A DNA stretch of 64,000 bases, taken from contig BGZK01000091.1 of NCBI GenBank assembly GCA_005406025.1, forward strand, positions 682,001 through 746,000, in the 5' to 3' direction. Numbering within the stretch: position 1 is the stretch's first letter; every line of letters begins with the position of its first letter. Below, piece by piece: positions 10,503-40,500 of this stretch. This stretch comes from Eumeta japonica (Eukaryota > Arthropoda > Insecta > Lepidoptera > Psychidae). The notes beneath the pieces are model-generated. The model made no database searches, was not told where the DNA came from, and saw only the letters and a program-made list of their open reading frames with translations. A program made the translations under genes and the position numbers.

Positions 10503-10564
<62 letters not shown>

Positions 10565-13500: not shown

Positions 13501-16500
13501 TTTCGCGGCTGAGCTTCCAACTGTAGACTGCAGGAAAAATGTTAGATGTACTAAATTGCTAATATAATTTAGAGTTTATTGAAATCTTTTCCGATAAGAA
13601 ATGTCATAAAATGATTCTACTATATAAAAAAAAAAAATTCTATTGATCGATATTCTGATCGTTCAAAATTAGTCCTAATGTTTTATACCAGGTGAAAACT
13701 TTAGACGCTTTTTCTATAAATATTAATAGATAATAAATAAATAATAACTAACGTTAACACTATTATTTATCGTCTGTATTTGTTTTTGATTATTATATAA
13801 CACAATCATAGGAATTTCGATATAATTATATACGGAGTTTAACTAATAATTAAGCCAGAAATTTTGAAATAAATTTACCTCTTCTGTTGCCGTCAGGTAA
13901 GTTGGCGCAGGAATACACCAGAGAATACGAGTCGTAGTCTGTGTCCAGTATCCAATAATTAGATTGTGTGGTTTCTAAGAGAAAAAATAGTATTACAAAT
14001 TAATTATAATTTATTAAGTAATAGTAGTAAAATTAGGATTTATTTTAAGTGAAACATTAGCTTTTTCTCATGGCTCCGTCTACAATCTTGTTTGATATTT
14101 TAGTCTTTATTAAAACCTAGACTCTAATTCCGATCTTGATCCATTACCGATTCTGATTCTGATCCTATTACCGATTTCAATTCATCTTCTTTCCTCTCTC
14201 GTATCTTTTTCTCTCTCTCGATCACCGTCTCGCTTTTGTTCGCGGCACATTCGCTTTCTCTATTCATAATCCTCTCACCTCATATCTCTTTCTCTTCCTC
14301 CTCTACTCAGTCCTCTCTCTCTCAGTCCTTAACTCTGTTCCTTTAAGCCTCTAAATAGAGAATAGAGATAAAGAATGAGAGAGAGAGAGAGAGTGAGTGA
14401 AGTGGAAAACAAACATAGCCGCCAAAATATAATTAAAAAGTGACGTTTCAAATATTTTTTCTAGAACTTGAACATAACTTATCATTATAATATATAGCTC
14501 ATATTTATAAACAGACGGGCAGATATGCATTAGCTTATATTTTGCATAGACAAACAAACAGACTTACGTTTTAGGCGTCGATATGCTCTATCCGTTTAGT
14601 AAATTTTATTGAAATCCATGTGGGTAGAGTTGTAGGGCATTATGCATTATTAATTATAGCATATTATTACATGCGTAGAACACTCACACACATCAATCTA
14701 AACATGAAATGCTGCATATAGCCACTCCGTAGTGCGCTTGCGCTTAGCCATGATTTATCTTCACGATCACAATGAACTAGAATTGTTACTGCTAATACTC
14801 TAGACTACTTAATATAAACAAATATATATTAAAACTTGCTCAAGTAACGTATTTCTATACTAAAGAAAAAGTTATACAAGTCTTCCGAACGGTTATTGAG
14901 CCATAAAAGTGTAATATATAGTAGGCGGACATACAGATAGATAAATCGACTTAATGTCCATGGATACGCCTAAAACTGAAAATTATACGATTTTTTAAAT
15001 AAACGATAATTTAATAAAAACCTATGGAGAAAAGACTGAAAAATGAACTATGCCATAAGGAAAATGACAAAGTTAAAAAAGAAGTACTGAAAGAATGAAA
15101 AAGAAATTGTTACCACTGTTAAAGACAATATTGCCTTTAAATGTATTTTATTGTTCAAATTCGACATTTGATAATATACTAACTAATAAACTTATACTAA
15201 TAACTTATTTAAGAAATATCGCTCATCTTTCGTCATTGAGTATTAAGCAATATTACTTGTGACTTTATTTCTGTGATTTCGTTATTTTTACACATTAAAT
15301 AGGTATTTATGACACCAAGTTAATTAGAATAATAAAATTATGGGTTAAAAATAAAACATAAAGAAAATCACAAATTAAACTTAATTTCCCTGCACTTAAA
15401 CATCGTCTCTATTATCTGAAACTTTATGCCATCTTTTCTTGTCTCCATAAGTTACGCTACTGCGAGCCCCATTCCACGCTGGATGACGTTACAATTCACA
15501 AAAACAACTTCGTCATATCGTTAAAAGATAACGTGGAAGAATCACAGAAGTAAGCATTCATGAGTATTAAAGAAAACCGTACCAGCGGCGATATAAACAA
15601 TACGCCGACTGTTCACTACACAGATGCAACTTATGCAGTTTGTATTCACAGTGAAAATTTTCTGCACTGTTTAAGGTCCCTCACCATTGGTATCGCCGAT
15701 AGGGAACGAAACGATGAGCCTGGCGCTGCCGTCGTCGCCGTCCAGGACGGCCGTCCCCGAGATGGTGTCCAGGGTTTGGTCAACGACTTGCGTGTTGAAA
15801 ACGTTGACGACGCCATCCACGCCCAAAGTGTAGATGGCTTCGTTGCAGGCGCCCCCTTCGAATTCTGACGCATAGCTTTCGATCGATCTCCATAGACCTT
15901 GATACTGAAATGTTTGATAATTTATTTTATTGTAACATACCCAAAAAATTGGATTGAGTAGAAGATTATTAATACTATAAATACCGTCAAAAGCGTCATA
16001 CAAAAATATAGTGAAACTTAATGCAGTTAGTTTATAATATGTAAGTAATATGAATTATGTGTGATGTGGACTGAGAAAGAAGCAGGTTTGAAAGCAAGAT
16101 CGGGAGTGGGGCCAATCCGTAATTCAATCGGAATTCAGTATCAAGTTCTAATTTAGAAAAGGATTACTGTAAAATATAAGATGAAAAACCTTATTCTGTA
16201 TTTACACATGCGAAGTCGGAGCCGGTCACTAATCTTTTTTAAAACTCCTAATATTTCAGCATTAATTGAACAAATTAATGTGCATCGCTTTTAAAACGAT
16301 TGGTACTTATTAAAAAAAAAAAGCATTTATATACATATGCTCAGATAAACATGCCCAAAGAATGATTGTTTATAAACAGTTTATTTATAGCCTGATCATT
16401 CTTAAAATAATTTAACAAATCTATAAAGTAATTTGAACGACAACATTAATATTAGTACCTGATGTTACCCCACATAATCGAGATTATAGAATGCTTACAT

Positions 16501-19500
16501 CGTGTAGTTTGAGGTTTAGATAATAAGTTAGAAAAATACTTTTAAAAATGCATATTATGCTTATGAGTTTCTTTGATTGCTTTTCGAAGTAGCGTCTTTG
16601 TTAACTTACGCGAATCGGATTGAAGTTTTCCATTACAGGAATAGTGGGGTCGCAAGGGCCGTCGATGATTACTGGCTCTCCTGCTGGCACGTCCGGGAGG
16701 AAGAAGCATGCGTCATCTGACTGATCTGTATCCTCATAATACTGGTCGGCTAAAACTTGGATCGATGATATAACTTCATTTATGGCTTGGTTTGCTTCGG
16801 AGTTAAGTCCCGATCTGTCTCGACTAAGCTTCCAACTGTACACTGCAATGGAAAATTAAGTTATTATGTAATCTTAGGTAAATTGTGGTTCTCAATACGA
16901 ACAAGCAATTTTAATATTACCTCTCAGATTTATTTAAATGATACTATTTTCAAACTGCCTACTTATTACTTTATGATTACAGGTTTAACGGAACTTGTCT
17001 TTCTTAAATATCCCATAAAACATCAAGTTGTCAGTGGTGATTTGTGGTGAAATCAAGAGTGAAATCCTCACACTACAAATCATGATTTTGAGTTCAATCT
17101 CAATTGCATTGTATATTTGGCATTTAAATAGCTACTACAACAATACATCAAAAAATGTTTTTGCGTTTCCATTTAATGATTCGAATGTAATCAGAATTGA
17201 TGAAGGGACTGGATTGAAAATCGAAAGTGAAATTGCGATTGAAATCGTCTATAGATCAAAAATCCAGAACGTGTTTGACAGTGATATAAATAAAGACGAA
17301 AGAATTAATTTTATGTCTGTGATAGCGAGTTACAAATAAAAACCGCTTGCAGTATTTCTGTCAAATTAAGTTAAAGTTCTATTTGTTTTACGAACAACAC
17401 TTTAGATAATCAAGAATTTAATTTGACACTCAAAATTATTTTTCCTCACCTTGTCTCCAGTCTTGGTCGATGTTAATACAACTATAGGCAAGAGCGTAAT
17501 TGTCGTAGTCTGTGGCGAGAATCCAATAGGGGATACGAGTGACTGCGAAGAGAATGCACATATAATTTGTAGAAATATTCATGCATTTACAATTATAATG
17601 TTACAACAAGAAACAAACGTTCAGTTTCTACCTGTTCCGTCTTGATTAATCATCTCGATTTCGAATTTGGCACTGTTGTCGTTTGATGTTCTGATCGCAC
17701 CAGATGTTATCGAATCAAGGAAATAGTCCACTACTGTCGTCAGTTTAATGTCGAAACTATTGGCAGAAGTACTCGAATAATCGAAGGATGGACATTCCCC
17801 ATTTCGGTTGTAGGGATAAGCCGCTACCTCACTCCAGACTCCGCTGAACTGCAAAGAAATGAACTGATCAGAGATTCCGCATTTTGATAACGTGTCGATT
17901 GTTATGCAGTTGAACGCGAATTTGCTCTAAGTAACGTGCATTCGTAACTTTCGTCATAAAAATGCATCTTCAGGTTGGTGTTAAATGACTTAGGGCTTGG
18001 ATATGAAACTAGTAAATAGAAATTATAAAATTTGAAATTAATAAAAATTAGATATTTTACATTTATTATCCCCTTTTTTCCGTTTATCGTGTTGACGTAT
18101 TAATTTAAATGAACACCGTGTCAATTTTTGACGCAGTACGTTTCTTTGTGAAAGGTAAAACTAATAACTATAATAAAAAAATTCAATTGATTTTGAGGAC
18201 AACATTATTTAGACTATTTTAGAAGCGCTTGTGGCATTTATTCATATTTTTCATACACGACCATTTTAATGACTTGCCTAATGTATGAAAGGCAGTACTG
18301 CGGAGAGATCAAGCTGTATCTCTGGTTCTACCCAATCGAATTATATGAAATATAGTATGTTAAGTTGGGCCCCAAACTAAGAAACTGTGAAAACTTCATC
18401 AAAAGTTGTTCGGCAGACAGACAGATAGACATTCATTCTATAAACGGTTGTTTTGGCTTTTGTTGTTCTAATAAAAACCCCCCATATAAGTTTTTTTTTA
18501 AATATTTATAAAGTATAGACATCTGCTTGTTACAATTTCATTATATATATATATAGATTAGCATGTAATATAGATTTATGTCCGTTAATGTGTAACACCA
18601 AGATAATACTTTATTATTAGCATTTTCAAGAGACATACAAACGAACCACCAGGGAGTAAGTGGTCATCATAGCCCATGGACACTCACAACTCTAGAGGAA
18701 TTACTACTTCATTGCCGGCCTCTTGTGTAGGAATAGGACATTCGATGGAGAAGGGACCAACGGAGGAGAAGTGCAGCGATGGCGAGTGGAGTGGGGCATC
18801 TCACTCACTGGACGAAACGAAATAGCGGAAAATGTTACTTCATAAATGTATTATGTGAGAGTGTGGCATCTCACCGTTAGTAGACAACAGAATAACTTTG
18901 CCGCTCAATACAATATAACAGTGTTATGACTTCATTGCAATTTAACCACGTTACGAAACCAGGCTTCAAAAATCAGACTTACTCTGTTTATGTCGAAATT
19001 AGGAACAGCTTGGATGCTCTCATCGCACTGGCCGGGGAATACAACTTGTTGGCCCAATATCGGTTCAGGGAAAAAGAAGCATCCTTCGGGTGTTTGATCT
19101 CTCGTTTGGTAGTATCTGTCGTCAAGGACCGGTATGGACGCAATTATGTTATCCATTATGGCATTTTCTGCTTGGGTTAGTTGTTTTCTTCTACTTAGTT
19201 TCCAAGACCAAACTGCAAATTAATAAATTTTGATTTGACGTAGAAAATAAAATGGAGGTTGCATTTATATATTAAATAAAATCATTTTGATAGAATATTA
19301 ATTATTATCAAGAAGAAGAAGAATTGCAAGAAACTTCTTTAAGTCTATTTTTTAAAGTTTGATATTTAAATGTATTATATCGATATTAAAATGTTATCGT
19401 CGTTTGAAAATTCATTGACAAAACAATATACCACTTTGGTGACTTATTTCTAAATGCAGTTGTTAAATTGGTTGTTATTTAATTTTTTCTTATGAATTAC

Positions 19501-22500
19501 GTTAAACAAATTTAGTCACCCGTAAAATAATTAATTAATATTTGTCATTATAAATCGAATGTATGTTACTTCATAGTTTTATACAAAAAATGTTAAAAAC
19601 GCTTAATAATTAGAAAAAAATGAATAATAAAATTCTCTTTTAATATATAAATTAAAGAATAATAAAAGTAATAATCTATGAGGTTATTAAAAGCAAGAGA
19701 GAAATAACTTAATTATTTCCATGTTTTTTACAAATATCAGGTTCAAAAATTATTTACATCAAGTATGAAAAAAGTTCTCTTCATTATCAAAATTAATTTA
19801 TATGGCCGGTAAAATCAGAATTTAAAACTAAATATGTTATTTACTATTGAGTGGTAAATAACATGTTGAATGCATTTTTTGAAGATGACTTGAGTTTTAA
19901 AAACAGTGGGAAAAGTCGTTTTAAAAATCAACGGCGCCGTGTTTTTCATATTTAAATTAATCATCAATTATTACGTACAATAAAAGTATTTCACAATACT
20001 AAAAATAACGTTCTTGAGTGTTCAATAATATGAATACAAATGGTTGTATTCATATTTTTGAATTTATTTAACCTTGAATCAAAACGTATTTGAGAAATGG
20101 TTCCCAAATATGTTTTGGTTCAGAGCAGAGTCTTCACGAGTTATCCATTCAAGAGTTGAAATATTATCCATTTTGGAGTTGAAGTATTATCCCTTCGACT
20201 TCACACTCACCTCCTCGACGGTCTTCGTCGATCTGGGCGCACGTGTACACCAGAGCGTAGTTGTCGTAGTCGGTGCCGAGCACCCAGTAGTCCGTATCCG
20301 TCGTCCCTGTAAGACATGCCTTCATTTGTACTTCTAGGAATTGTTATAAAATTTCAAGCACTGTATATTTTCATTTGTAATTTGGCTGATTTTTTTTTGT
20401 GAGTGTATTAGGAGAAGGTTTGCATGAAAGAAAAGAACCCATGTAAATTTTTTTGTTTGTTTGTTTGCTCTGAGTATCTTCTGAACAGCTAAACTGATCA
20501 CGATTCGATTTTCACTGGACGGTTGAGGAGCTTACTGGATTACATTTAGATTACTTTTTAACTAGGAAATATTTAGAGTTCTTGCGTAAAAACTAGAAAA
20601 CCCTTTGAAGTAGGATAAACTATCAGAATTGAATTAAATTTGGAACCAGTATCGAAATTGGCGACAGAACCGGAATTGGGATTGACGTCAAGGTGAAATC
20701 GAGGACGAGGAGCAGAATAGGGATATAATGGACGCAGTGTCATCAGCTTATATGAAAGACGTCAGAATTTGTTCTATATTCACATTGAATATCTATAATA
20801 AAAATTATCGGGGGTTTAATTATATATTACATATAATTTATTTACACGATTATAATTTATTTAACCAATTTTAATAAAAGTTACCACGGTTACACTTAAA
20901 ATAAAAAGGCAATTCGTAAATGTAAAATTAACTGACAGATTGCCCATGACCATACAATACATATCATATATTGCGGATTACGTTACCGAAATACATTTTT
21001 GGTTTTGGTGCAACTCGCCGTTAGTACGGACAAAGCTGAAAGTCAATAAGAGAATGTGTGATAATTTGTTAGGGCTCTGTGGGAATTACTAAGAACCCTT
21101 ACAGTTTAAATGATTTCAATAGAATTTTGTATGGAGATAGCTGTAAATAAATGAAAAGATGGAAACAGCTGGGAGTTAAATGTACAGGATATTTATTTTA
21201 TGTATCTCGAAAGCCTAAGAAGGGATATCCGATATATTTTTAGGGCTCCGTGAGAATTACTAAGAACCCATATAGATTAATCAATTTTAATAAAATTTAA
21301 AATGGTGATAGTTGTTAACCAATTAAAGTACTTACGATGAGTTTTGAGGGTTCGTGAGAATTATTAAAACCCTTATAGTTTAATCGATATCAGTAGGAAG
21401 TTGGTATAGAGACAGCTTATACAAAATATCAGCGAAATCGGTCAAACTTATAGTTTGACCGATTTCGATGATATTTACACTCGTTTTTCTTCTTAGTAAA
21501 GAAAGAGTGTTTCGAGTAGCTTATTGTTGCGTGGTTATGTTTTGCGAGATTAACAAATCTTAAATTAAAATTTGAACGATTTCCATAAAATGTATTTATA
21601 TATGGGTGATTCCGTTCTGTGATTTTTAATGTTCTGCATTGTTTGTTCTGTTTTTTTCTCACTGGCAAATAGTTAATAATCTATTAAAGAAAATTTTGTG
21701 TTAATTGGATAATTATAAACATATTTAAACATTATTTTTATATAATATAAATTGCCACTGAGAGAAAACTTTTATTGCATCATTTAAATATCATTATCGT
21801 GTCCAGTATTAATTATTCACCAGTGAGAACAAACAGAACAAACAATACAGGACATTAAAAATCACAGTTAGAATTGAATCACCTATATATTAAAAAATCG
21901 ATATAGAGTACTTAATTTTTGTGATTACGTGAATAGCCTAATAAAATTCACTAAAAAAATTATTACAATTTAACTAATGTCAATGAAATTTCCGGTTTTC
22001 TCTTATTAATTTAGTTAGTAATTTGAAATTATGAAGGAATGATTATGAACTACTATATTTCATTTTATTTATCAACAAAAAAAGACTGGAACAAACCAAA
22101 AGCGAAGGTGTAAGAGAAAGCGTACTACAGGCAGTGTACAAGCCAACGTGGGAGCCGCGACGCGATAGCTACTACTAATATAAATCTGTTTAAGAGACTG
22201 GCGCTACGGAAGAAATAAAAAAAAGTCTCTTGTAACTATATAATTGTCACATTTTATTGAGTAAATCGTTTACGCCAATGATGATTTTTTTCAGAAAGCT
22301 GGCTTCTTCATTTTATTGCAGAATAAGATATGAGAAAATGTTCAAATAATAAACAAAAAAAAAGCCACACTAACACAATAAGCGGAATAAATGAGAAAGC
22401 TTAGTCTACGCGGGAAAAGCTACTTGTAAAATCAATTTACATAACTAAATAGTTTTAAAAATACTTCACACGTCATCGTATAGTTTAGGTATAGTTAGCT

Positions 22501-25500
22501 AAGACACCAAAAGTGATCCGGATTAAAACCGTAACCGGTAACTGAATCGAAATATAAAACGGCATGGGAAGTAGAATTGAAAAATGTATGATTTCTCAAG
22601 GATAACAGTTTTAACAAATTTTGTGGTTGGTTAACTAATTTGAAGAGCGAGATATCGATGAAAATTGAGAGGGGAAGATGGGCTAGGAATCAAGAATAGT
22701 GCTAGGGCCTGTGTCGTAATGGAAAGAGATTTCGTCTGATATAAAAGATGAAAAAATTCATCGTATTACATATCCACGCGGACGTCACCGTTAGCAAAAT
22801 CTTGTAATAAACAATTCTGCAAACTGCTTTTGGTGCGATAAAAATGATGATAAAACATGAAAATAATCTGCAAGTGTTAAGGTGTATTCAAAATATCTCA
22901 CAGTTGGTCCCAGCGAGGGGGAAGGAGACGACGAGCTTGCCGAGCCCGTCGTCGGGCGACGCGAGCGCGGCCGAGCCGTAGATGTAGTCCAACCGCTGGC
23001 CGACGACCTGCGTGTTGTACACCTCCACGCCGGCGTCCGTGAGCGTGTACCGCGCGTTGTTGCACGTGCCCGTTTGGAACACCGACGGGTAGCTCTCTAT
23101 CTCGTGCCACACGCCCATGTACTGGAGTGCGAAATTGAAACGTAATAAAGTATTTTGTCTTTATTTTTGCGAATAGATGCATCGAAGATAAGGATTCAGC
23201 ACTATTATTTTAACGAAAACAATGAAGTATTGTTTCTTTTTGATAACAATTCTGAAATTTCACTATGAAATGGCAATAATATCGTACAGCCATGTCAATT
23301 TAATTATTTTCACTTTCATATAAAGTGATTTTGATTTTGTAAAATAATTATCTGCTCAGATCGCTGGTAGCTAGAAGATTAATTAATCCGGATTTTATGG
23401 GTATTATAAAGTTATTGTTATTCCACCAGTTAAATTAAGCTTGAAAGAAATAAATTCTCCGGGAATATTTGTAAAATAATAAAAATTGTGGTACCTGTTT
23501 ACGAAATGGGAGTTACATCTACTACTAATTTATTTCTAATGCTGTTGCTGATAGAATACCAGATTCATTGGAACAACATCAAGATTTTCTAACATATATT
23601 AGGACAATTATTGCTATAGTTCAATTTAGCACAACATATTATGTTGTGCTAAATTGAACTGAAAATTCAAATGCATTAACTTTCTCTAACAGAAACATTA
23701 AATTAATTGATGTAGTGGTTGTGTTGTAAAATTAGATTTGATTTGATGCTTGCCAATTTCGGCGACTACTTCAGCTTCGATTCCTTTTATATCTTTGGTG
23801 AAATCTTTTTGAAATAAATTTCGTGCTGATTGCGGGTACGTAAGCATAATATACTTGTAATTGATTGCTGCTCTTGGTAAAGCTCTTGACTCATCTCACA
23901 TTGAGTCGCTTTAAAATTGTAAAATCTGGATTTACTCAGAGCTCTCAGCTCCGAGTAATGAGTTGCTAGTATCTTCCACTAAGAGAAGTCTATACTGTGA
24001 CATTTGGCATATTGTAGTTTCTGAGGAATTCGCTTTGCTTACACCTGTCTTTCTAAATTTCAGAATAAAAATCTATTTACATATTTTCTCCTACGCCATC
24101 CATGTCATGTAACTACATCACCGAAGTTGTCACCGCATGAAGGAGGCCTCAATACCACCTCCGCTGGCAAAATGTAGTATTCCGGAGTTCCTCATACGGT
24201 CAAATCATCCAGGTTTTTGTGCATTTCAGATAAAATCGGTACAGTATGTATAAGTGAAGAAGCTGTATAGTTTATTTTTTCGCAAAGGATAAGAGATTAG
24301 AAAGCCTGAATACTATATAAATAGAAGTTTTAATGGCCAAATTCCGGTTGCAAATGTAAAAAATTTGGTATATAAAGGTCTTCATTGTTGACCGACTTCA
24401 GAGAAGACTTTGCATGGGAGCTTGTGATAATCAATTTGTTCAACTTAATTTTAAAATTTCACGAGCCGGTGTCATTTTGTTACCATTGTTCTTACGTTTC
24501 TTTAAAAACTTCACACATTTCGTTGTCAATCTGTTAGAAGAACTTCTGGTTTACTTTCTAGGGTCTTGGGATACCTCTATCTTCGTTCCATGCGCTGTTT
24601 TTGCACCAAGTCTGTCCATACTGATGCCTATAGGCTTTGAGTTGATTTTAGCGCCTAGACAAACTTCCTCCACAAAGATCGATAGAGTCGCTCTTAGCTT
24701 TATTCGCTTAATCAGACATCCAATCCATCACGCTTAACCCAAAAGTTGATGGAGTCTACTAAAGTTTGGTCTCTGCATGCACTGCAGTTACTCGATTTGC
24801 TGATAAAATTTTATGTGATGCTTACGTTCAGTGGAGTTTTGTATTTCTCAGTGAAAAGATCGATAGAGTACCACAGTGTTCTTAGTAGTGTTAATACCCT
24901 AAGATACAACCGGATTGGAAAAAATATACTTGAAGCTGTAGGTCAGTGAAAACTAAAGCGTTAGTATGCCTTTTTATATTATGTTCCGGCGTATTGTGTG
25001 GTTTGTATATTTCTGATATTTTAGGTTAATCACTTTTTATTGAGCTAAGTACTGCCATTATTTTACTGTTTAAATCAATGAATATTATGCACATTAGTAT
25101 AATATTGATAATTGTACCAGTACCAAAGATTCCCAGAAAATTTAATTAAAACGTACTGCATCCGAAAGCTTTCACAACTCTGCAACAGGGTAGATTTCAT
25201 TCATCCATGTCAAAGTTACAGTAAAAACAAAAACGCATCAAAGGGAATTGGTATACAAATAATTGGATAACGGAAAATATCTTCTAAAAATCAATACTAA
25301 CTCTAGCAGCGTCGAAATTTTGTTGCACTTGGATGCTTTGGTCACATAAACCTCTGAAAGTGACTGGTTCGTTGTACACAGGGACCGGAAAGTAGAAACA
25401 GTCTTCATCTGAATGTAATCTACGCGTGTAGAATCGTTCGTTTAGTACGCGAACTCTGCTAATAACCTCATCCATAGCTTGTATTGCGGAGTTGGATAGT

Positions 25501-28500
25501 TCTCGTGTGCGACTCAGCTTCCAACTGTACACTGTAAATATACAACTAATCAATGATGTCGATATAAAAAAATCAAATGATGTTCTTTGTACAAGGTATA
25601 TGAAAAAAAAATATCATATTCTTAGGCGGTATTGAAATAAGTGTAAGTTAAACTGAATCTAATTAACTTAAAATTACTGACATCAAGTGGAACGTAACGT
25701 CCGTGAGTATCTAAGGCTCACATACTAGATACTGGAGAACTTAGAGCTGTATTGCTAGAACGCTTGCAATTGATGTTCTTCATTATTGATGACAATTCAA
25801 AAAAAAAATAATAACGGTTGTTACGAGTAATCATAGTAGTAATAAATGATTTGTTTCTTTAAAAAATATATAGCCTTATAAATATAAATTTGTAAATATT
25901 ATAATATTAGGCAAATACTTAATTTCTGTTTCTGTATACACAAAATCTGTTGATTATTATACTAATGCAGATACGTGTTAATTTCAAAAATTCATACCGT
26001 TGTACACAATTAGATTTTTTCTATGTGTTGTATTTATAAGGGCAAACATTAGGTACGTTTCTAAAGTAATAACTTTACCTCGCATAGTGTAATCATCCAC
26101 GTTGGAACAGGAATATACTAAGGAGTAAGAGATGTAATCGGTCCTGAGTACCCAATATGTGCTTGTAACTGAAACAGGAAAATAATGATAGTTTGTCTAA
26201 TCATAATAAGTAGATTAGAATGAAAGTCAAATAGCTTTCGCAGTAAGAGGCTTGTCCCACAGTTTTTGGGTCTTATTTCTCATTAGAAAAAAAAATTAGT
26301 ATTTTTTTTAATGTCATCGCATTGATGCTTCTATACCTTACGTTGACCCATATGAAATGGTTTTCAATATTTATATGTAATAATGTTATTGTTTTGATAT
26401 GATAGCTTGTTTGAAGAAGTTAAAAAGATCAACAAAAGCAAACTTATCAATTATATATTGTCAATGCAATTTATTAATAGAGCAATATAGAATGTAGTTC
26501 TCTTAATACTTAGAAATATAATAACACAATTTACCGTTAATTCCCCCAACTTCAAATGTAACGAGCAGTTTGACGCTGCCGTCATTGTATTGTAAAGTAG
26601 CTCGTCCATAAATATCGTCCAGAGTTTGGTTAACAACTTGGGTATTATAGACGATTACTTCTCCGCTTGAGTTTATGGTGTAATTGGCCTCATTGCAAGT
26701 ACCATCTTCGAACTCTGCCGCATAACTTTCAATGTTTCTCCACAATCCTTCATACTGAAACATATAGCACAATGCAAGAGTGCTTATGTGATACATGCAC
26801 ATTAACGGTTTGGTTTTGTAACATTTGTGAATAGTAGAATTGAATTGCAAAAGAAATTAGTCTCACATATCACAAAATTGTAATGTAAAATAAACATATT
26901 TCCCGGAAGTTAGAATTATTATTGTCCATACAACATGGTATATCATTCATCATATATATAAATCTCGTCACTTTCGTCGCATCATAATAAACTATTTTTT
27001 TTTTTTTGTAAAACAAAATTTAACTGTTAGTAAACTAAACTTTTACAAGTTTGGAGTTTCATTTGAGTTTTACTAAAAAGATTGTATAACAGAAAATCTA
27101 AAGAAATGGATACAATAAAATGTTGACGAACTGCTTTGGAAAATAAAAAAATAAATTTATAAAATAATTACCCGACTTGGATCAAAGTTCATCTCAACCG
27201 GTATAGTGAGATCACATTGTCCATTAAGGATTACTGGTTCTCCTGGTGCCAAGTCTGGCAAATAGAAACAGGCATCGTCCGATTGATCGGTAGTTTCAAA
27301 ATAGTCATTGCTCAATACTTCGATAGACGACATTGCTTGATTTATCGCGTTCTCAGCATCAGCCGATAATCCAGAGCGAGATCGACTGAGTTTCCAACTT
27401 CGAACTGACAAACAGAAAATCAATTATAGATTGGTAAAAAAAGTTTAAACTTTACAAAATATTACTTCTAATTTTTAATATCAGTCTTTAGTGCATTTAA
27501 GTTTTTAAGCAGAAAAGTGGATGTGATATCTCCATGAAAAAAATTTAATGCTATTTGGTAGATTTGCAGATGGCAGAGTACATAAGTAATGAGGGTAGGT
27601 ACATTAATTACAAAAAATAAGGTATTTATGCACCACCCCTTGCCTAAATTAGTGTCTTCAGGGAGGCCTCTCCTTATCGCTGTCTTATGCGATATTCATA
27701 AAAATGTTTTGTTTCTGTATAATTTGCAATTTTGTCAAATAGGCAAAAAGGTCAAAGGTCAAAATTTGTATAGTGAAACTATCTCAGTCACCGTTATACC
27801 GCTTCTGTCGCGTTGTATATAGGATTTGTAATGAGCCTGCATCCACGTGTGGTGTTCGTAAATATCGCTTTTGACAAGTGAGAGATCTAATCTGACGTTT
27901 CCCACTTTTTATACTTATATGAGGTAACTGCCTTTTTATTTTTCGTACTGAGCCAAATAAAAAAGTAGTTACTTTAATTATACTACAAAATGTTTAGAGT
28001 AACAGAAAGTTTTCTAAAATAGCAGGAGGGGCTCTGCAATTTAACAATTCCTGTAAGATAATTTTTTGTGCCGTGGTGTGAATTTTGATGATGAGTAAAT
28101 ATTTTTCATTAAATATTATTAGTAAAGATAATCGTTATGTATGAGCCTGAACCGTCTCTACATTTTCATATTAGTTATTTATTTACAACGCTAGCGAATA
28201 TAATAAGTTTTATAAACTCATGGTAGAGGTGAAGGTTTTGTCAATATCGAATTGAAGAAAAAATGTATGAGTAGTCTACAAAGTCTATAGTTAAATGACA
28301 TGGTACGGTACATTTTTACATATTAAACGAATTGAAATTATTGTCAATATTTATATGTAATAATGTCATTATTTTGATATAATAGCTTGTCTGAAGAAGT
28401 AAAAAAATCAACAAAAGCAAACTTATCAATTGCATATTACATATGGATGATATCAATAAAAACAATTTAAATAAATTATTACGACTTCATTCATTCGCCT

Positions 28501-31500
28501 ATGATTTTTAGAACGATTTGTTATGAATACATATTAATTCCAACTTACCTCTTCTCCAATCTTCATCGATGTTAACACAACTGTAAACGAGTGCGTAGTT
28601 ATCATAATCAGTAGCCAAAATCCAATATGGAATCGTTGTAGCTGTAACAAAGCTTACATTTAATAATCGATACTTATATCGGAACTTCACTAAAATTAAA
28701 TAAAGTCACATCCTTACCAATTCCGTTTATGACTAGATCAACATCAAATTTGGCGCTATTGTCATTTACAGTCCTAACGACATTAGATGTTGAAGCGTCC
28801 AGAAACTCATTTACAACCGACGCCCATCGGAGACTGAAGGCGTTGTTCGATGTACTAGTGTGATCTAAAATAGTACAATCACCTTCACGCTCATAGGGAT
28901 AAGCAGCAATTTCGCTCCATACACCTGCAAACTCAAAAAGAAGTGAGCTGTATAGGTTAGTTAGTGATCGAAATAATACAATAGTAATAACAATATTAAA
29001 AAAATGATCTTACCCTATTAAGGTCGAAATCAGGAACAGCTTCAATGTTTTCATTACATTGTCCAGGAAACACGACCGGTTCACCTAAAACTGGTTCAGG
29101 GTAGAAGAAACATCCCTCTGGAGTCTGGTCTCTGATTTGATAGTATCTCTCGTCCAGAACGGGTATAGAATCTATTATGTCATTCATAATAGCATTGTTT
29201 ATGTTCGATAACTGTTTTGTTCTACTCAGTTTCCAAGACCAAACTGTAAATAGAAATCACATTTTTTTAATATATAGTATAAATCTTAAAACAGTTTTTT
29301 ATCATAACACAAATTAGACATTTTGGAGAAGAAGTTGTTTAATTTTATAATTGCACAATTCTTTCTAAATTACCTCCTCTACGATCATCTTCGAGTTGAG
29401 CGCATGTGTAAACCAAAGCGTAGTTATCATAATCTGTAGCGAGGACCCAATAATCTGTTTGTGTTGTTTCTGTAAGAAAATTTCATCTTAATAGAAAAAT
29501 CTGCGACATGTTTTTATTAATTTGGTTCATAAGTCTATTTTGGTTCACAAGATTGGTTTATAAAAGGTTTAGTAAAAGTGATTAACTCGGGAGTGACTAA
29601 AGATAACGTAACTCAATTAAGTATTTCTATCGAGTAAAATGTACATGAAGTGTGATAAAAAGTATTTTATAATGTACTCGATAAAAGTCAGTAGCTACAT
29701 TATTTATAAATATACCGAAATTTGCAAAGTAAACTTTTAGGTTTTGCGACAATTTAAGTCGTGAGAAATCATATCATAGTGTTCTAGTAACTCCAATATG
29801 AGATCAGTTCAAATAACGAAATATTTTTTTTGGAATTGACATTTAATAAGCTAAACAGTAAAAGAAAGTTATGTTTATATGAGCAAACCTGCAAATCTTT
29901 TTTGTCTATAAAGGTAATCACAAAATAACGTGCAGAAAGGTTCATATAAAGTGTTATTGGAATAGGGTCTTTGGGAGGAATCTAGCAAGTGACAGGGGCA
30001 TTGATGAGTTATCAAATGATGAGTTAAAAATAAAGCCTTTACTTACGGTTGGTCCCAGCAATGGGGAAAGAGACGACGAGCTTGCCGAGCCCGTCGTCGG
30101 GCGACGCGAGCGCGGCCGAGCCGTAGATGTAGTCCAATTGCTGGCCGACGACCCGTGTTGTACACCTCGACGCCGGCGTCCGTGAGCGTGTACCGCGCGT
30201 TGTTGCACGTGCCCGTTTGGAACACCGACGGGTAGCTCTCTATCTCGTGCCACAAGCCCATGTACTGAAATGTAGGGACGAAATTTATTTTGGTAGTCTA
30301 CTTAGACTTTCATTGCCTTTTTTTTCATTTCTCGTCATATAAATTCAAAAGAAAAGTGAGAAAAATTATGAATTTTGAAAAGGCAACTTTTGTAGATAAA
30401 ATATCGTTACTTACTCTTTCAGCGTTGAAGTTTTGTACTACTGGAATAGTTTGGTCACAAACTCCTCTGAACGTAACTGGTTGATCCTCGACATGGTCCG
30501 GATAATAGAAGCAATCATCATCCGAATGCAATCTCCTTGTATAGAATCTCTGGTTTAGCACACGGACTCTGCTCATGGCTTCGTCTATAGCTTCTACTGA
30601 AGCTTGTGTGAGTTCTCTAGTACGGCTCAGCTTCCAGCTATATACTATTAAAAATGATCATCTCAGAGATTTTCATAAAAGTCGTTATAAATAAAAAAAT
30701 TAAAAGACATAACAAACCATTTTATTGTAATCTTAATATTATGTATTTCATAATTCTCAAGGACTACTGGATTTTGATACCATAAGCAGTTATTGCGTTT
30801 GAGTTGTGATAAAATTCTAGAATATAAAAACTTACCTCTCATGTAATTGTTGTCCAAATTCGTACAGGAGTATACCAATGAATAAGAAACATAATCAGTG
30901 CTGAGAACCCAATAAGTAGAAGTAACTGAAAGAATAAAGTAGTGTATTTTTTTGTTGGAAATTTGTAATTGTAATACAGTGCCATCATAGGCTGTTGACG
31001 GTATAAAAGTATTGTAATGTTATTAAAAAATCACCATTGAATCCTCCAACTTCAAAGGTAACGATCAATTTAGCACTTCCGTCATCGTACTCTAAGGCAG
31101 CGCGCCCTGTGATGTCATCTAAGGCCTGGTTTAGCACTTGTGTGTTATAGACTATCACTTCTCCATTTGTATCTATCGTGTACGTAGCTTCGTTACAGGT
31201 GCCATCTTCGAATTCAGCAGCATAACTTTCAATGTTTCGCCACAAACCCTCATACTGAAACACAATTACACAAGGTAAATAAATTATTCTATACTTTATT
31301 AGAGAAAAAGAATAAGTCTTCTAATATTAAATTCATGTTAAACTAAAAACAAGTGATTTCGCAACTTGTGCCATGGGACTGCTTTATTAGAGTAATACTT
31401 TAAAGTTGTGAGCTACTATATTTTCTTATACTTTTGGGACTTCATTTGGATGCTTTCGTTGATAATATACATGTGGACAATTCGTTCGTTTCTTGCTGTT

Positions 31501-34500
31501 TAGTTATGTTTCTATCTAGTTGTGATTGCTTTTGATTCATAAAACACAGCGTTTGAGTGCTGGACATCGGTGAATTGGGCTTTGAATTATTAACTTAAGT
31601 CAAATTAAATTACTAGTTCCACGACTCCGCGAGCATATAAAGCAATCGATTACGAACGTTCTTATTGCCTTTGTGATAACTTTGTTCAAGACCTTCTACA
31701 CTGGGCCAGCTTTAAGCCATAAGTTCCAAGTTAAATAATTTATCTTAAAAAAAGACATAAAGTTGTACAAATTATGGTATGTCTCAAATTATTTTTTATA
31801 TTAACTCAATATCCCACATGCCTTTTTAATTGTTGTTACAAATGACGAAAAAAATGGTATTCTAATGGTATCCCTCACTCGGAAATATAAAGATTGTACG
31901 TCTCAGCAATGAGGTAATAGAAATCTGATACGACAATTAAAAACTAAGAGAATCGGAAAATATGATATGAAAATTTTGTTTCGAATTTCGTCTTCAGTAT
32001 CGAATTGAATTAAGATCGGAAGCATAAATATATTTTGTGTCCATACGAATGAAATTTTAGGTAATGGTTAGTTGCATTACTTTAGTATTTTATTATCTAA
32101 TATTCTAGAGACGTACTGTATTTCATAAAGATATGCCAGTTTTCATTACTAAAATATTTAATGATGAAGAAGATAAATCAAGTAAAAAAAATATTTGAAT
32201 TAAAAAAAAAACGTCATACATACACGAAATGGATCAAAGTTCTGTACAACAGCTATGCTGGTATCGCATTGACCCTCAATTATAACCGGTTGTCCTGCAG
32301 GTATGTCCGGCAAGAAGAAACATCCATATTCAGATTGATCGGTGGTTTCGTAATATTCATTACCTAGAACTTGAATGGAGGAAATGATCTCGTCCATGGC
32401 CTGATTGGCTGTTGTCGATAACCCTTCACTGGAACGACTGAGCTTCCAACTGAACACTATAAGGTAGAAAATTGACATGAGATTTCAAAGATGTTTCTAG
32501 AAGTTGAGTTAAAAATGTGGTTCTTACCTCTCCTCCAATGTTCATCGACATTGACACAGCTATATGCAAGAGCGTAATTGTCGTAGTCGGTTGTGAGAAT
32601 CCAGTACGGCATAGGTGTTGCTGTGAGAACATTAACAATTTTAGCAAATGTGTAAATTGTATGATTGTTAAGAAAAAGTTAAGAACGTATTCATAAATAG
32701 TTAAGAAAAGATTTACGTAGAGTGTATATAAATTTTTAGCCACAATTTTTTTTCATATAATAAACATGAATTTCGTTTTATATAAATATAGCGCTTTTTG
32801 GGACCAATTTAATATGGTCTTACGATACGATGATATGCGATTGCTTATAGTGTTGTTGTATTTTCTACTAAAAATTGTTTTTGGTAGTGCATGTTGAGCC
32901 CAATGAATAATTCGTCAGAGTTGTATTCGAAGTCTAAGTCTAGAATTCTGATATCTTCATAGTTTTTAATTATAAATGGATATACGACTATTTGTGATTT
33001 ACACAGGTAATTTTGATTTGAACGCACTGTTAAATTAATTGTATTATAGAAACGGTTAAAATGATACCTTCGCCACCAATATTCAAACTGAGCTGGAATT
33101 TGCCGGTACCATCGTTTACACTCCTCACAGCGCTTCCAGTTATGATTTCGCGAAAGTCATTTATCACTGACGTAATCGTCATGTCGAAAGTGTTGGCAGC
33201 GGTGTTAGTGCAGTCGAAGTTAACACAGACGCCGGTCTGAAGCTTCGTGTAAGCTGCTATTTCATACCAGACGCCCCCAAACTGGAAATGTGAAAATTAT
33301 CAATATTTTTATTATTTTAATATTACGATGAACAATACTGTTGATGTTCATTTCTTTACACAGAAAACTCACTCTGCTGACTTGAAAATCTGCGGCGGCT
33401 TGAATAGTTTCGTCGCACTGGCCGGGGAATACGACAGGTTGTCCCTCGACCGGTTCAGGATAAAAGAAGCATCCTTCGGGTGTTTGATCTCTGATCTGGT
33501 AGTAGCGATTGTCAAGCACGGGTATCGAATTGATAATGTTATTCATGACGTCGTTCGCTGGTGCAGATAATTCTTTCGTCCTACTCAGCTTCCATGACCA
33601 AACTATAAAAACAATTTTAAATTATTGGCGCCAAAGAATGTTTCTAAAATATGTTCGTTATTTAACCGTTAATTTATTTAATATTAACACTCGAACGAAC
33701 TTCATGGTTTTATGTTTTGATTAAATTTCTTACCGCTTCTGTATTCGTCGTCTATTTGACTGCACGTATAAACCAATGCATAAGAATCGTAGTCGGTGGC
33801 TAGCACCCAATAATCGGTTTGCGTTGTTTCTATAAAAATCATAAAAAATAATAAATATACTATTTAAACATTAAAGAGGCGTATAATTTGTATTTATTAT
33901 AATACGTCAACAAGATTTTATATTTGTATACTTATTTACACAATATTAATATACTTATCTGAAATGTATTTTTTTTTTAATAAAGTGATAAGAATTTATT
34001 AATCGTTTTTTCATTGCATCGTGTGAATTAAATAAATGTATTGTGTAAAAGATTGTCACTGCAGATTTTTATTTACTTTTAATTCAAAATCTGAAATATT
34101 TTCTTTCAACATTCATTCATTAGTTATCTAATTGCATCAATTTAGATTTTCTTTTGTTTTTTATTCGCATTAATTGATTTTTTGCTAGTGTCACAGGACT
34201 CATTTTTTATTTTTATCATTTTTTAAAACTTAGAAAATTGTCTCACGGTTGGTCCCAGCGATGGGGAAGGAGACGACAAGCTTGCCGAGCCCGTCATCAG
34301 GCGACGCGAGCGCGGCCGAGCCGTAGATGTAGTCCAATTGCTGGCCGACGACCTGCGTGTTGTACACCTCCACGCCGGCGTCCGTGAGCGTGTACCGCGC
34401 GTTGTTGCACGTGCCCGTTTGGAACACCGACGGGTAGCTCTCTATCTCGTGCCACACGCCCATGTACTGGAATAAAATAGGAGATATGTATTATGTGTTT

Positions 34501-37500
34501 ATAAATATGTCTAGTTCAATGAGCCTTAATTAAAACTTTAAAAGAAAAGAAGGTTGGAATGATGGAATATAAGTCATATTATATACCATTATTTTTACAA
34601 CAAATCTATATATGTATATCTAATTATATTACTCTAACGTAGTTTTTTTTTATAATTTGTACATTTTTAAGTATGTAAGCGCATATGCACGTACACACCA
34701 CGCAAATCGTAATTCTCACAAATGCATCTGTATGTATATGTATGTAGTGCGCTTACATCCGTATGCGTGCATGGACGCTTGTGAACCCGCATGTACGCAC
34801 GCAAATATTTATATATGCATGGTACTAATACCTACTCTCCCTTAAGGCGATACCGCGATGAGAAGAGGGATGTCCCTTACACACCAATAACGGACATCTG
34901 TCCGATGAGCAAGCTAGTAAGATTATTACTAATAGCGCATATTAATTAATGAAATAGTAGTAGAACGCGCGGCCTCACGGCAATAAAGACGTAAGCGCCA
35001 ATCCATATAAAGTTCATTTAAAATAAAACGACGCCAATTAAAAAAAAATATTTTACCAGTTTGTTAGAAATTGTTAGTACCTTTATCCTGAAAAAGTAGT
35101 ACAAAGGAATGCATTATCGATTTCGCATAACAACGAAAAGGACAAATTATCAGGGTCGATTTTGAAATTTAATTCTAACGAGAAATTTTTGTCGAATCGT
35201 GTATTCTTTTTACAGTTCAATAACTTAAATAATGAAAAATATATACCAAAAAATCAAACTCCTAACTCATACATTTATTGAGATCGAAGAAAAAACAAAG
35301 CTCTATTTTTTAACACTTAAGGGATTTGGTTCACGGATAAGGCCAAATATACAAAGCTATTAAAAATAAATATAAACACAAACAATATATATATCAGTAT
35401 AACAAAAAAAATAGTAGATAAAATTATTATGTTTTTGTGACGTCACTTGTGAGAATTAATACTGATGAAAAGACTGGAAAAATGGTTTTCGTTTTTAAAT
35501 AATGTTTTCTAAAATGGCTTACAATTGATCGGACCTGATGTATAATTAATTGATTTGGACACCTTGTAAGAGTCATCACATTCGCCTAAGTATTTACATT
35601 AAATCGATTTTAATAAATGATACATAAATTCGCAAAAAAAAAAAACAACTTATTAGACGTCTTTGGGTTAATAAAGTAAATGACACTCACCCTCTCCGCA
35701 TCAAAATTTTCAACGACAGGTATGTTTTGATCGCAAGTCCCTCTGAAAACCACGGGCTGGTCCTCAACATGTTCGGGATAGTAAAAGCAGCTCTCGTCCG
35801 ACTGATCGGCCACTTGGTAATAGTGATCGTTTAGTATAATCAGGGAATTCACGGCGTCATTCAAACCGGATTCTGCTGCTGCCGGAGATGGTCTTCTGCT
35901 TCTAGTCATTTTCCAACTCCATACTGGAACGACATGAGAGCTGTACCGTTTCTAAATCTGTTTCGATTTGAAGTGAAGGAAGATGCGATATGACTGTTTC
36001 TTTCGTCTATCATCAATCACGAGCAAATGAACGAAGTTCGGACGTGTATTTTTTATCACGGGTTTGGTTATTATAAAGCTTCATTTAAAATGAGTTGAAT
36101 ATACTCGGCTTGGAAAATTTTACTGGTGTTCTATTACATAACACGAACATATGTAAAAATGTAAATTATACACGGATAAAATTCCCTACGCACATGAAAA
36201 CTGATATCAATATCTGTTTTGTAGTTTGACAGTTTGAGAATAACATTTTTGAAAATTAGGTACGTGATTAAAAACTCCGCTTTTATTATTGGTTTAAATA
36301 AAGATAAATGAAAAAAAAAATCATTTGAATATGGTAGATCCATGCTGTTAGCTATCTTGGCTAAAAATTGGCCAGCTAGCCCGGAGCGATACCACGCTCT
36401 CACAGATTCCGGTGTGAAGTTTCGTCCAGTGAGTGAGAGTTACGGTGCTGCACTTCCCCTCAATTATCCCTCTTCCCGCTCCATCAGACTTCTTCTCGCA
36501 CCATCTGATATCTTATTCCTAAATAAAAAGCCGGCTGTTTTGTTGTTTGCGATTTGTATCTTTGGGGTTACGAATGTCCATAGGCTACGGTAATTATTTA
36601 TTTTCTGGTCATTTGCTCGTTTGCCCTCATAGAAATACTATACAAATTACAATTGTTGAAATGGTTTACCTCTCATTTGGTTTTCGTTAACATTTCTGCA
36701 GGTATAAGTCAGAGCGTAATTTTGATAATCCGTTGCCAGAACCCATAGTTCGGTTTGAATCATCTCTGCAAAATTATGCATAAATTAAAGATATAGCAAT
36801 TAATATTCCATTTAATATGCGTTCAGCTATTCACGATATACTTATAAATAATACAATTGCATGCTTTAGTAAAAGTTGTGTATTACTGGAAAAATATGTC
36901 AGTAGTATTTATGTAAAGTACAACGCACGAAACTTTGCCGATATTAGTTGCCTTCAAACGACGTATTGCGCAGGTTTAACGCTCCCCAACCCTTCCGTCT
37001 TTCCCCTCGCGTGATACTTTTGCGCAATAGTGATGCTTTCCTGACGAACTTCACAGCGGCAAAGTTTCATGCGTTGTGCTGTATTATTTATGTGTTTTGT
37101 GTGGAGCGGCTTCCAAGGACAGACGTAGGAACAGTGACATTAGAAAACCGACTGATTTGAAAGATAGAGCAACCAGAGTAGACAATGACGTGTGGAGTTG
37201 ATTCAGCCATCTGGAAAGGATAAATTAAAGCAGACTGGTGAAAGGAACCTATTTATTATTCCTACATGCTATTACAACAGACCCTAGAAAAAATTATGTG
37301 AACTAGAATAGTAACATGTTAAACGACGACCGAACGCTATGTACAGAGACTTAATGCTGCAAGAAACGATTAGTGGACGTCACAGAACCGAAAAATATAT
37401 GTGACAATTACGATTTTCGTATGGCGTACGGTATGCCATACCATGAGAAAGGTATTAATCCCATTAATAAATAGAATTGTGACTGTTATGTTATGCCACG

Positions 37501-40500
37501 TCATGTCAGGGGGAGGATTTGAACATTTGCCGGCAGTAGACTATCCAAATTTTGCCGCCTCTATTGACCTCTACAATTCGGTACCCTGGTTCATAATCAT
37601 GTTCTATGATTGTGAACTAGAGCATTAATGTGTCAGTACCTAGATAATATTTACAATGCAACTACTGAATGCCCTAATTATACATAAGAGACTCGTGTAG
37701 AAAAAACATGAGCCGTTTCAACGTGAATAAAGAAGAATGGACCGCATTAGATCAGAAAACATCAGAAAGAAATTAGAAAGGCTGATGATGAACTTTGTCA
37801 ACTCTCAGAAGCTAACACTGAAGATTTGCACCAAGCGAAGAATATAAAGAATAAAAAAGTAACGGAAGAATTAAGATAGAAAAGGAGGATTTCTTGTATG
37901 AAGAGCTGGACACCATCTACTTAACACCATTTCAATACCTACAACAATAGAAAAAAAAGTTGAATGTCATAGTTACACGTGGCAGACTCGTGTAAACAAG
38001 ACACGATCTAACGCAACAGGAACAAAGAAGAATGAACCGTATTAAATTAGAGGAAATCGGATATTAAAATTGCTGCTGCTGGACTACATCGATCTTTAGA
38101 TGGATACTGAAAACTCTGTACCAAGTGAAAAAAAATAAAGAATGCAAGATTGACGAAAGAAATTAATTAGGTGAAAAAGATGGAGGGCTTGATATTACTT
38201 AACTCCGCTTAAAGACATACTAAAACCGAAAGTTAATTATACTTGGGAGACACGCTCAAACAAGACACGAAATATATATTATGACAGGAACCGTAATGAA
38301 TGGACCACATTCATTACGGTCCCACAAAGAAAAGAAGCGACTAAAAATGATTTTATTTTTTAAAGAACAGCTTGTGTCATCGTTTACTTAATTCCGCTTT
38401 AAGATCTACTACTACTGAAATATAGTTATACTCGAAGGAATCACTCAGATAAGACAAGAGTTACTGTCACAGGTACTAAGAAAAATGAACGACATTATCA
38501 CAGAACAAACTAGAGATTACAAAGATTGTGGATGATATTTACCAATTCTCAAAAATAAATATTGAGAATCTGCACTAAACGAGGAAAAAGAAGAATGAGA
38601 GATTAATGAAAGAGAGAAATTAGGAAATAAAGATTTCTTTCAAAACACGAGTTTGACATCATCTAATAAACACTGTCTTAAAATCTACTACAACAGAAAG
38701 AAAAGTTGAACGTCCTAGTCACACATGAGAGACTTGTGTAGACCGAACTACTACAACAGGAACCATGAATAAGAGCCGGTATTATATAGAATAGTACAGA
38801 GAAAAGCGGAAACTAAAAAGGTTGGCGATGAACTTTGTCAATTCCTAAACGGATGCTAAAACTTCATTCAAGTTGAGAAAATAAAGAATGAAAGATTGAC
38901 GGAAGAAAAAACTAGAAACGATTTGTTTAAAAGCTCGACATCATCTACTTAACTCTGCTTTAAGAATTTCTGCAATGAAAAGTTATTCCCACTTCGAAGA
39001 TTCGCTTAACAAGACAGTAGTTTTTACAACAGGAACCAAGAAAAATAAACAACATTAGCACAGAGTAGTACAGTATAAATTAAAAAGTCTGCAGATTAAC
39101 TGTTCTAACTCCCAGAAATTGACGTCAAAGCCTGCACCGAGCAAAGGAAACGATAAACGAAAGAGAAACGAAAGGATCATACTCTTACCCCTATATTTAT
39201 TGACACACTACTATAGTGTCTATTACCTATCCCAACTACAGTTTCTGGCTAAAGGTTACACGAATACCAGCTGGCCCTACACTCCAGTCACTCCTAATAC
39301 AGACTAAAACCTGCACTTTTTTCTATAATTACGTTCCCTTCTGTGTATCCGGACTTGTCCCTTTCAGTCATTGCGACTGATTAAAGGTTCAGCGATGATG
39401 ATAATGATGATACAAAATTTATTCATACGTACTCCAATAGTTAACCCTTATATAAACGAAAGAGTCCCTACTATATATGTACTTTATATTTAAATGAAAT
39501 TCAATAAATACATGTAATATTTACAAGTCATCTGTCAGTATGTTAAATGGTCGTGGGTCAATTACTGTATTAATTTTAATCTAAACTTACCGTTATCAAC
39601 CATAAGGTTCACATTAAGTCTAGCACTACCATCTGTAGATGCTAGAGTCGCTGTATCGTATACTATGTCTAAAGCTGTATTTATGACGCGATAATTTGCG
39701 ATATTGAAGCCGTTTTGATTCGTGACGGTGTAGGTGGTCCTGTGGCAATTACCCACCACACCTTCCGTCTCGTAGCTGGCTATTTGGTGCCACAACCCAG
39801 AAAACTGGAAAGACATTTTACAATTGAATAATTTTTTTAGAAAATCGATCGAGAACAGTGCATGGGATGAGTGGACTTCCTGTTTTCTATAAAAGGGAAA
39901 GTGCTATAGATTAGCAGTCGTACTAGTTAATGTATATATACAAAACGAAAAGTTTCTCATTTACTTTCTGATTAAGAACATAAAATAAAATTGGCATTGC
40001 AGTCTTGACCTCTTAGATTAAAAAGTGTTGAATAAAGCGGTCCCTGAATGCAATGATGATTTTATCTATGTTTAGTTGGTGAATAAATTAGGGATGTTTA
40101 GTTTTGTATATACAAATTTGCTAATAAGACTTGTTTATTAGTATTTAGTTCGCTTTTAGGCAGGGCAGTCATGTTTTTTAATTTTCTTAATTATTTATTC
40201 TTATTCTATACATTTTCGTGACAAGTTATATTTTAAAACACAACGTGCTAAAATTTAATTTTTAAACACTAAAGTCGGTTTTGTAGTCGGACGGGCGAGG
40301 AGGTGCCGGGGCCCGCTTGGTCGCGTCGACTCGCGCGTACTTGTACAATACAACGCACGAAACCCTGGCGTTCTGTATTGCCTGCGAATAATGCAATGCG
40401 CAGTTTCAGCGCTCCCCGACCCATTCTTCTTCTCCCCCGCATTCCTGTCTTACGCCATTGCGACACTTTCGTGACTAAGTTCACGGTGGCAAAGTTTCGT

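Follow-up and report, generated by a model that had tools for sequence, protein, structure and literature searches.

Near-identity confined to one exon of three modules in a bagworm moth polycalin gene, probably by inter-module gene conversion

How can a single exon stay nearly identical in three copies within one gene while everything around it has diverged? In the usual picture, gene conversion acts on DNA tracts that are heedless of gene structure. The question is raised by a stretch of 64,000 nucleotides of the bagworm moth Eumeta variegata or, by one source, Eumeta japonica, here called the window (positions 682001-746000 of its contig, in an assembly of 701.7 Mb and 5067 contigs), the minus strand of which carries a polycalin (multi-lipocalin) gene with the exons of 16 lipocalin modules at ~44.7 kb to 1.1 kb. 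Modules 3, 6 and 9 share an almost unchanged first exon, exon A, next to strongly diverged exons B and C. The explanation that we consider probable is that gene conversion between modules copied exon A among these three modules, whose introns and exons B and C meanwhile diverged.

The modelled modules are built of three exons, A of ~220 nt, B of ~96 nt and C of ~230 nt, with phases 0-1, 1-1 and 1-0, respectively. Against the lipocalin family (Pfam PF00061/PF08212), modules 3 and 9 score 42-49 bits at cut-offs of 23-24, and module 3 finds the apolipoprotein D structure 2hzq in PDB at 3e-15; the nearest lipocalins to modules 3 and 9 in Pfam and to module 3 in PDB are apolipoprotein D and insecticyanin. 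With the exons of 16 modules in one gene, and with proteins named polycalin among its relatives, the gene belongs to the polycalins, its frame being broken in module 6 as assembled. One search aligns the annotated protein, P0001, to the window modules at 94% over the region searched, the other at 100% over 55% of it. A three-module repeat (alpha, beta, gamma) occurs here in three blocks, whose alpha members are modules 3, 6 and 9. The gene and the exons at issue are as follows.

1145..44659, minus strand: polycalin gene, spanning exons 1A to 16B (neither the gene ends nor exons 1B and 16C identified); annotated protein P0001.
34247..34466, minus strand: exon A of module 3 (alpha), 220 nt, phase 0 to 1; homogenised, 97% identical to 6A and 9A; GC 0.64, GC at third codon positions (GC3) 0.90.
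30047..30264, minus strand: exon A of module 6 (alpha), 218 nt; homogenised; a 2-bp gap (alignment columns 112-113) puts the assembled sequence out of frame.
22902..23121, minus strand: exon A of module 9 (alpha), 220 nt; homogenised; GC3 0.96, the highest of the 42 exons modelled.
33734..33829, minus strand: exon B of module 3, not homogenised; 72% identical to 6B and 67% to 9B, with 0.73-0.76 of synonymous sites differing (pS).
29374..29469, minus strand: exon B of module 6, not homogenised.
20211..20306, minus strand: exon B of module 9, not homogenised; GC-rich (GC 0.61, GC3 0.81).
33373..33602, minus strand: exon C of module 3, not homogenised; 68% identical to 6C and 73% to 9C, pS 0.66-0.93.
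29014..29243, minus strand: exon C of module 6, not homogenised.
18983..19212, minus strand: exon C of module 9, not homogenised.

The alignment of the three A exons has 220 columns, 11 of them variable, plus the two-column gap in 6A. Pairs differ by 7 (3-6), 7 (3-9) and 8 (6-9) substitutions, which amounts to nucleotide identities of 97, 97 and 96% as against 72, 67 and 73% in exon B and 68, 73 and 74% in exon C. The A exons of the other trios are far less alike: 52-56% among the beta exons 4A, 7A and 10A, 75% between the gamma exons 5A and 8A, and 61-62% between either of these and 11A. Exact words shared by the A exons of modules 3, 6 and 9 reach 85-127 bp, and at most 31 bp in the 33 other A, B or C pairs examined. 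This identity stops at the splice sites or within a few bases of them, and a splice acceptor and donor fit all three exons. In the 60 nt beyond each exon edge 18-25 bases match, which is the background level, since 88 control pairs average 21.0 (sd 3.5) upstream and 20.2 (sd 3.7) downstream; what does match there are splice-consensus positions and, for 3A and 9A, the six bases with which the intron begins. Of the nine introns tested, none matched another (blastn, E<=1e-3) at settings that connected all six B and C pairs. Within the exon, the differences crowd the 3' end, with 7 of 11 in the last 53 of 220 columns (binomial 0.006, post hoc). An earlier reading of the same DNA from its letters, referred to here as the sequence-only reading, had placed the three exons at 34466-34247, 30264-30047 and 23121-22902, which is exact to the base; its counts by eye of about 7-8 differences in 220 positions, of B partners that differ at roughly a quarter or more of positions, and of unalignable introns all agree with these measurements.

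Silent sites are what distinguish exchange of DNA from conservation of a protein. The synonymous divergence (dS) of exon A is 0.116, 0.074 and 0.075 for pairs 3-6, 3-9 and 6-9, about nine in ten silent sites being unchanged, and the nonsynonymous divergence (dN) is very low (0.006-0.019). In exons B and C of the same modules pS is 0.66-0.93 and dS is above 1.5 or saturated; trios 4/7/10 and 5/8/11 have a pS of 0.79-0.84 in exon A, again with saturated synonymous sites. A tract of low dS flanked by saturated sequence, the signature expected of conversion, is seen in exon A of modules 3, 6 and 9. At columns polymorphic in the family, 6-7 of 141 mismatch in A as against 84-100 of 227 in B and C together. 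A column permutation in the manner of GENECONV, on the exact alignment that the sequence-only reading had proposed, reached the observed matching run or segment score in none of 20,000 trials for each of the three pairs, which supports conversion. Because silent sites are homogenised in exon A, purifying selection on the protein cannot be the sole cause and is ruled out as such; the earlier suggestion that selection keeps one binding face identical fails at the same point, dS of 0.07-0.12. A young triplication is likewise ruled out, exons B and C being saturated or nearly so at synonymous sites. The data thus support a homogenisation that acts on nucleotides.

Other polycalins serve as a comparison. 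In a protein tree of exon A (227 sequences, 15 species) the Eumeta exons 3A, 6A and 9A form a clade of their own with support 0.99 and distances of 0.03-0.06, and in the tree of B and C the distances among the same modules are 0.31-0.43. Within-species clustering had been named beforehand as support for conversion, and orthologous clustering (3A with 3A across species) as an argument for purifying selection; only the former is seen, at the protein level and in a set of species without a close sister of Eumeta. The B and C tree also recovers the three classes within Eumeta (3/6/9 with support 0.72, 4/7/10 with 0.97, 5/8/11 with 0.92) and places Eumeta modules 12, 13 and 14 closest to the modules of the same number in other species or, where proteins have 13 modules, to the equivalent 9, 10 and 11. 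Twelve polycalins from 11 other species, Plodia with two, have aligned A exons that are 39-69% identical within a protein. These 12 proteins have 13 modules, and their "9A" corresponds to Eumeta 12A; since a global alignment to them mismatches module numbers beyond ~8, class and tree assignments replace it and only within-protein identities are used.

A wider survey at the protein level, from predicted genes, covered 59 other polycalins out of 113 proteins, 60 with the window. Five of 64 candidates were excluded by hand, namely P0001 (the window's own gene), P0051 and P0112 (duplicate species), and P0076 and P0110 (second loci with many near-identical modules); a further 49 proteins were left out as short or partial, isoforms, other loci or non-lepidopteran. 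An isolated exon A was defined as identity of at least 90% in A, below 85% in B and below 80% in C. Nine module pairs in the 60 proteins fit this definition, three in the window and six in Aricia, Leptosia and Brenthis; in those six the exon C of the preceding module is also 89-100% identical, which makes them the edges of longer runs. By this definition, only the window shows isolated homogenisation of exon A. At a looser cut-off, runs of a single exon A occur in six other species (Pararge, Euphydryas, Vanessa tameamea, Pieris rapae, Dendrolimus and Leguminivora), where exon C of the same pair is at least 80% identical wherever scored and exon B is the outlier. The near-identity of 6C-9C and 7A-10A in Spodoptera frugiperda was considered as a parallel and rejected, as it is a single run of three consecutive exons, unlike the window. 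Exon A exceeds both B and C in 45 of 116 alpha pairs, 14 of 75 beta pairs and 20 of 90 gamma pairs (pairs of mean identity 60-80). Where the mean identity is 80-97, exon B comes last of the three exons in similarity in 13 of 25 alpha pairs as against 2 of 27 beta and 2 of 20 gamma pairs of the 60 proteins, a possible sign of diversification of the alpha exon B.

The three modules in question sit at regular distance in a higher-order repeat. Three profile models, one for each class, describe most of the 60 polycalins as beta-gamma, then n blocks of alpha-beta-gamma, then two terminal modules; the profiles were trained by module index on five species, Eumeta included, and the strings are partly circular for those five. 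The number of modules per protein ranges from 13 to 23 and is of the form 3n+1 (13, 16, 19 or 22) in 52 of the 59 polycalins other than the window's. Runs of exons at 88% identity or more within a gene are found in 34 of 60 proteins, and 73 of 76 such runs join modules 3, 6 or 9 apart (window included). Polycalins thus appear to turn over in blocks of three modules. In P0110 of Zerene cesonia, a polycalin-like protein, modules 2-12 are mostly alike at every spacing, with no period of three. A literature search on polycalin and tandem duplication gave no pattern of regular alpha-beta-gamma arrays with three-module differences between species among the matches listed, as far as their text was available, and one on polycalin and gene conversion returned no paper. 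The remaining members of the three blocks in Eumeta are as follows.

30415..33281, minus strand: modules 4 (beta) and 5 (gamma) of the first block, their A exons not homogenised with those of 7/8 and 10/11.
25302..28931, minus strand: modules 7 (beta) and 8 (gamma) of the second block.
13298..17848, minus strand: modules 10 (beta) and 11 (gamma) of the third block.

Base composition sets the three exons apart as well. The sequence-only reading had called them far richer in GC than their surroundings, and indeed their GC of 0.636, 0.638 and 0.659 (3A, 6A, 9A) stands against 0.34 for the window, where at most 0.1% of 220-nt windows reach it, the exons' own included. Measured per exon, as had been proposed, GC3 is 0.90, 0.92 and 0.96 as against a mean of 0.49 in the 39 other exons (sd 0.12, maximum 0.81), and GC at fourfold sites is 37/40, 36/38 and 41/42 as against a mean of 0.47 (sd 0.16). 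Exon 9B (20211-20306) is also GC-rich between AT-rich introns, yet has no near-identical B exon among those modelled.

How might conversion respect the limits of an exon? Repair of a break in one exon A would copy from another exon A. With no detectable homology between the introns, the strand under repair would have to return within the exon, which would place the borders at the splice sites and make the exon the unit of exchange. The crowding of differences at the 3' end is what would be expected if conversion tracts reached that edge less often. Once near-identical and GC-rich, the A exons would become the best substrate for conversion in the gene, and their likeness would reinforce itself; the shared words of exon A make it the best substrate of the pairs examined, and such a loop is therefore plausible. 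A GC bias of the repair would account for the high GC3, and module 9 might have been the donor, its exon B being GC-rich too and its own changes going towards GC.

Several points weigh against this explanation. Conversion works poorly on sequences that differ by about 28% and have short words in common, and a start at such divergence is left unexplained unless exon A had stayed alike since the blocks arose. The exon is replaced from edge to edge, with no unconverted 5' remnant and with the differences towards the 3' end. Isolation depends on the threshold: the Dendrolimus pair 6-9 (A 90, B 73, C 80, preceding C 59) just misses it, and alpha A exons of other species reach 90-100% within longer near-identical runs. 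The content of glycine, alanine, arginine and proline (GARP) is only mildly high, being equalled or exceeded by 21, 10 and 10 of 76 alpha A exons of other species, and the unhomogenised Eumeta exon 12A has a higher one (1 of 76). Polarised by majority rule, six of seven changes in 3A and 6A go from GC to AT and the seventh from G to C, unlike ongoing GC-biased conversion. In 9A, three of four changes go from AT to GC (Fisher 0.033 for the contrast, post hoc, from small, hand-entered counts). This polarity and the GC-rich 9B suggest module 9 as a possible donor and decay in the recipients, though on small numbers. GC-biased conversion, which the sequence-only reading had proposed, is plausible and unproven: the raised GC3 and fourfold GC speak for it, but amino-acid composition is little shifted and 3A and 6A change towards AT. 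Finally, the published assembly of E. variegata was polished with cDNA reads, in exons only (PMC6488591).

The age of the process is a further point of revision. Divided by twice the mutation rate of 2.8e-9 per bp given for Drosophila in PMC5854123, here taken as per generation, dS of 0.07-0.12 would correspond to ~13 to 21 million generations, given neutral silent sites and an end of conversion. The homogenisation named by the sequence-only reading stands, and its epithet "recent" calls for caution, millions of generations being implied unless conversion is continuing. Its core proposal, gene conversion confined to the exon, comes out as the best-supported explanation through the silent sites and the 0.99 clade, the parts on recency and GC bias being weaker.

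A more novel reading, which we think unlikely, makes the exon itself the unit of exchange: the alpha exon A would be a self-reinforcing island of conversion, replaced edge to edge through a spliced RNA or cDNA template or through microhomology at splice sites, GC-biased repair would have driven GC3 above 0.9, and the three copies would form a concerted family. If that were true, one exon of a giant gene would evolve in concert while the gene diverges around it.

An assembly artefact is the main rival to conversion of any kind, and we give it a small probability. Exon 6A, at 218 nt, is 2 bp below its copies, and as assembled the frame runs into a stop within exon 6B, at codon 87 of the module, a break that the sequence-only reading had overlooked. 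P0001 is out of frame for a stretch at the gap, and the 41 other modelled exons are open. The gap may be genuine, as a null allele, or an error left in the assembly at a place where the likeness of the exons impedes polishing. The published assembly was made with Canu from ~6.56 Gb of nanopore reads for a genome of ~0.72 Gb and was polished with Pilon, once with MiSeq and twice with cDNA reads, according to the description in PMC6488591; it is presumably the one analysed here, although the paper gives 731.8 Mb in 12,720 contigs as against the 701.7 Mb and 5067 of the present one. Exon-only polishing of nanopore contigs could have overwritten the other copies of exon A and could mimic the exon-exact borders, and both the frame-breaking gap and the less one-sided synonymous to nonsynonymous counts in comparisons with 9A (4:2 and 4:3) would fit. 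However, reads would hardly map to a paralogue that differs by ~28%, and polishing would shave off a few percent rather than raise identity from 70% to 97%; the copies still differ, and the ratio of 6:1 between 3A and 6A speaks of selection, not of read error; and cDNA of an expressed gene should span all exons, whereas exon A alone is affected.

It is improbable that a donor outside the gene, such as a retrocopy or a second polycalin gene, supplied exon A more than once. A spliced GC-rich donor might leave 9A and 9B both GC-rich around an AT-rich intron. Yet a DNA search of the own genome with exon 3A gave only the three known matches, in a setting where the parallel search with 3C reached 9C (76%) and missed 6C (~72%), and proteins of ~100-320 aa include no near-identical relative of module 9, the best being 63% over 43% of the query; a donor since lost, or absent from the assembly, may have escaped both searches.

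Strong purifying selection that keeps one face of the alpha lipocalin identical is very improbable as the explanation, although it may add to conversion. It agrees with the low dN of exon A and with the tendency of exon A to be the most similar exon between alpha paralogues (45 of 116 pairs). It does not explain why homogenisation extends to the synonymous sites of exon A, when those of B, C and the other A trios are saturated, or why alpha A exons are only 39-69% identical within the 12 polycalins of 11 other species.

The two weakest proposals have next to no probability: a young triplication followed by unusually fast divergence of B, C and the introns would suit a family where duplications of three-module blocks are common, but positive selection on the protein could not produce silent saturation in B and C and unalignable introns, and silent divergence is just as great in modules 4/7/10 and 5/8/11 of the same blocks; and a nucleotide-level constraint on exon A (codon usage, splicing or RNA structure) would suit GC3 of 0.90-0.96, but the A exons of modules 5, 8, 11 and 12 have no such identity and independent convergence on 97% is implausible.

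Inter-module gene conversion thus remains the probable explanation, and the case is probably real, unusual in its confinement and of a known kind.

A few further observations concern the rest of the window. Exon 15A (~3756-3386), which is not among the modelled exons, lacks an in-phase GT donor and may be a second frame anomaly of the polycalin gene. Upstream of module 1, weak lipocalin-like exons lie at 49086-49151, 54441-54563, 56679-56765, 57050-57118 (plus strand) and 62208-62330 and are perhaps neighbouring lipocalin genes. Non-coding repeats pair 36912-37083 with 40342-40513 (172 nt, 72%) and 26353-26426 with 28333-28406 (74 nt, 89%), and 21594-21890, also non-coding, holds an inverted pair with 63-nt arms; these are perhaps remnants of mobile elements.

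Homology that survives in exons alone would make the exon the unit of conversion, and the locus would offer a natural test of the shortest (220 bp) and most diverged usable template. If the explanation is true, recombination rather than selection can keep part of a polycalin uniform, in a family whose members bind Bacillus thuringiensis (Bt) toxins in other moths, as PMC10145054 reports. The polycalins or chlorophyllide A binding proteins of Bombyx (P0061) and of Plutella, the latter with a gene of at least 49 exons according to the same source, are of the same kind, with tandem lipocalin modules; the difference is that 0 of the 59 other polycalins have an isolated homogenisation of exon A as defined above, Dendrolimus coming close.

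Among the matches listed by a literature search on exon-limited conversion, no report described this case, and known systems resemble it in parts. The triplicate region of nebulin (PMC9109913) repeats eight exons three times in a giant gene, but it is described there as a segmental duplication, and such sequences as highly identical, whereas the Eumeta blocks have diverged and one exon class is alike. The silkmoth chorion family (PMC4639761) is a lepidopteran tandem family for which gene conversion and concerted evolution are discussed; it consists of separate genes, some with conserved flanking non-coding DNA, in contrast to one exon class between unalignable introns in Eumeta. The avian Z/W gametologs (PMC4278454) show conversion signals in exons between extremely dissimilar introns, as in Eumeta, but involve several exons of two homologous genes on different chromosomes, whereas the bagworm case joins modules within one gene through a single exon.

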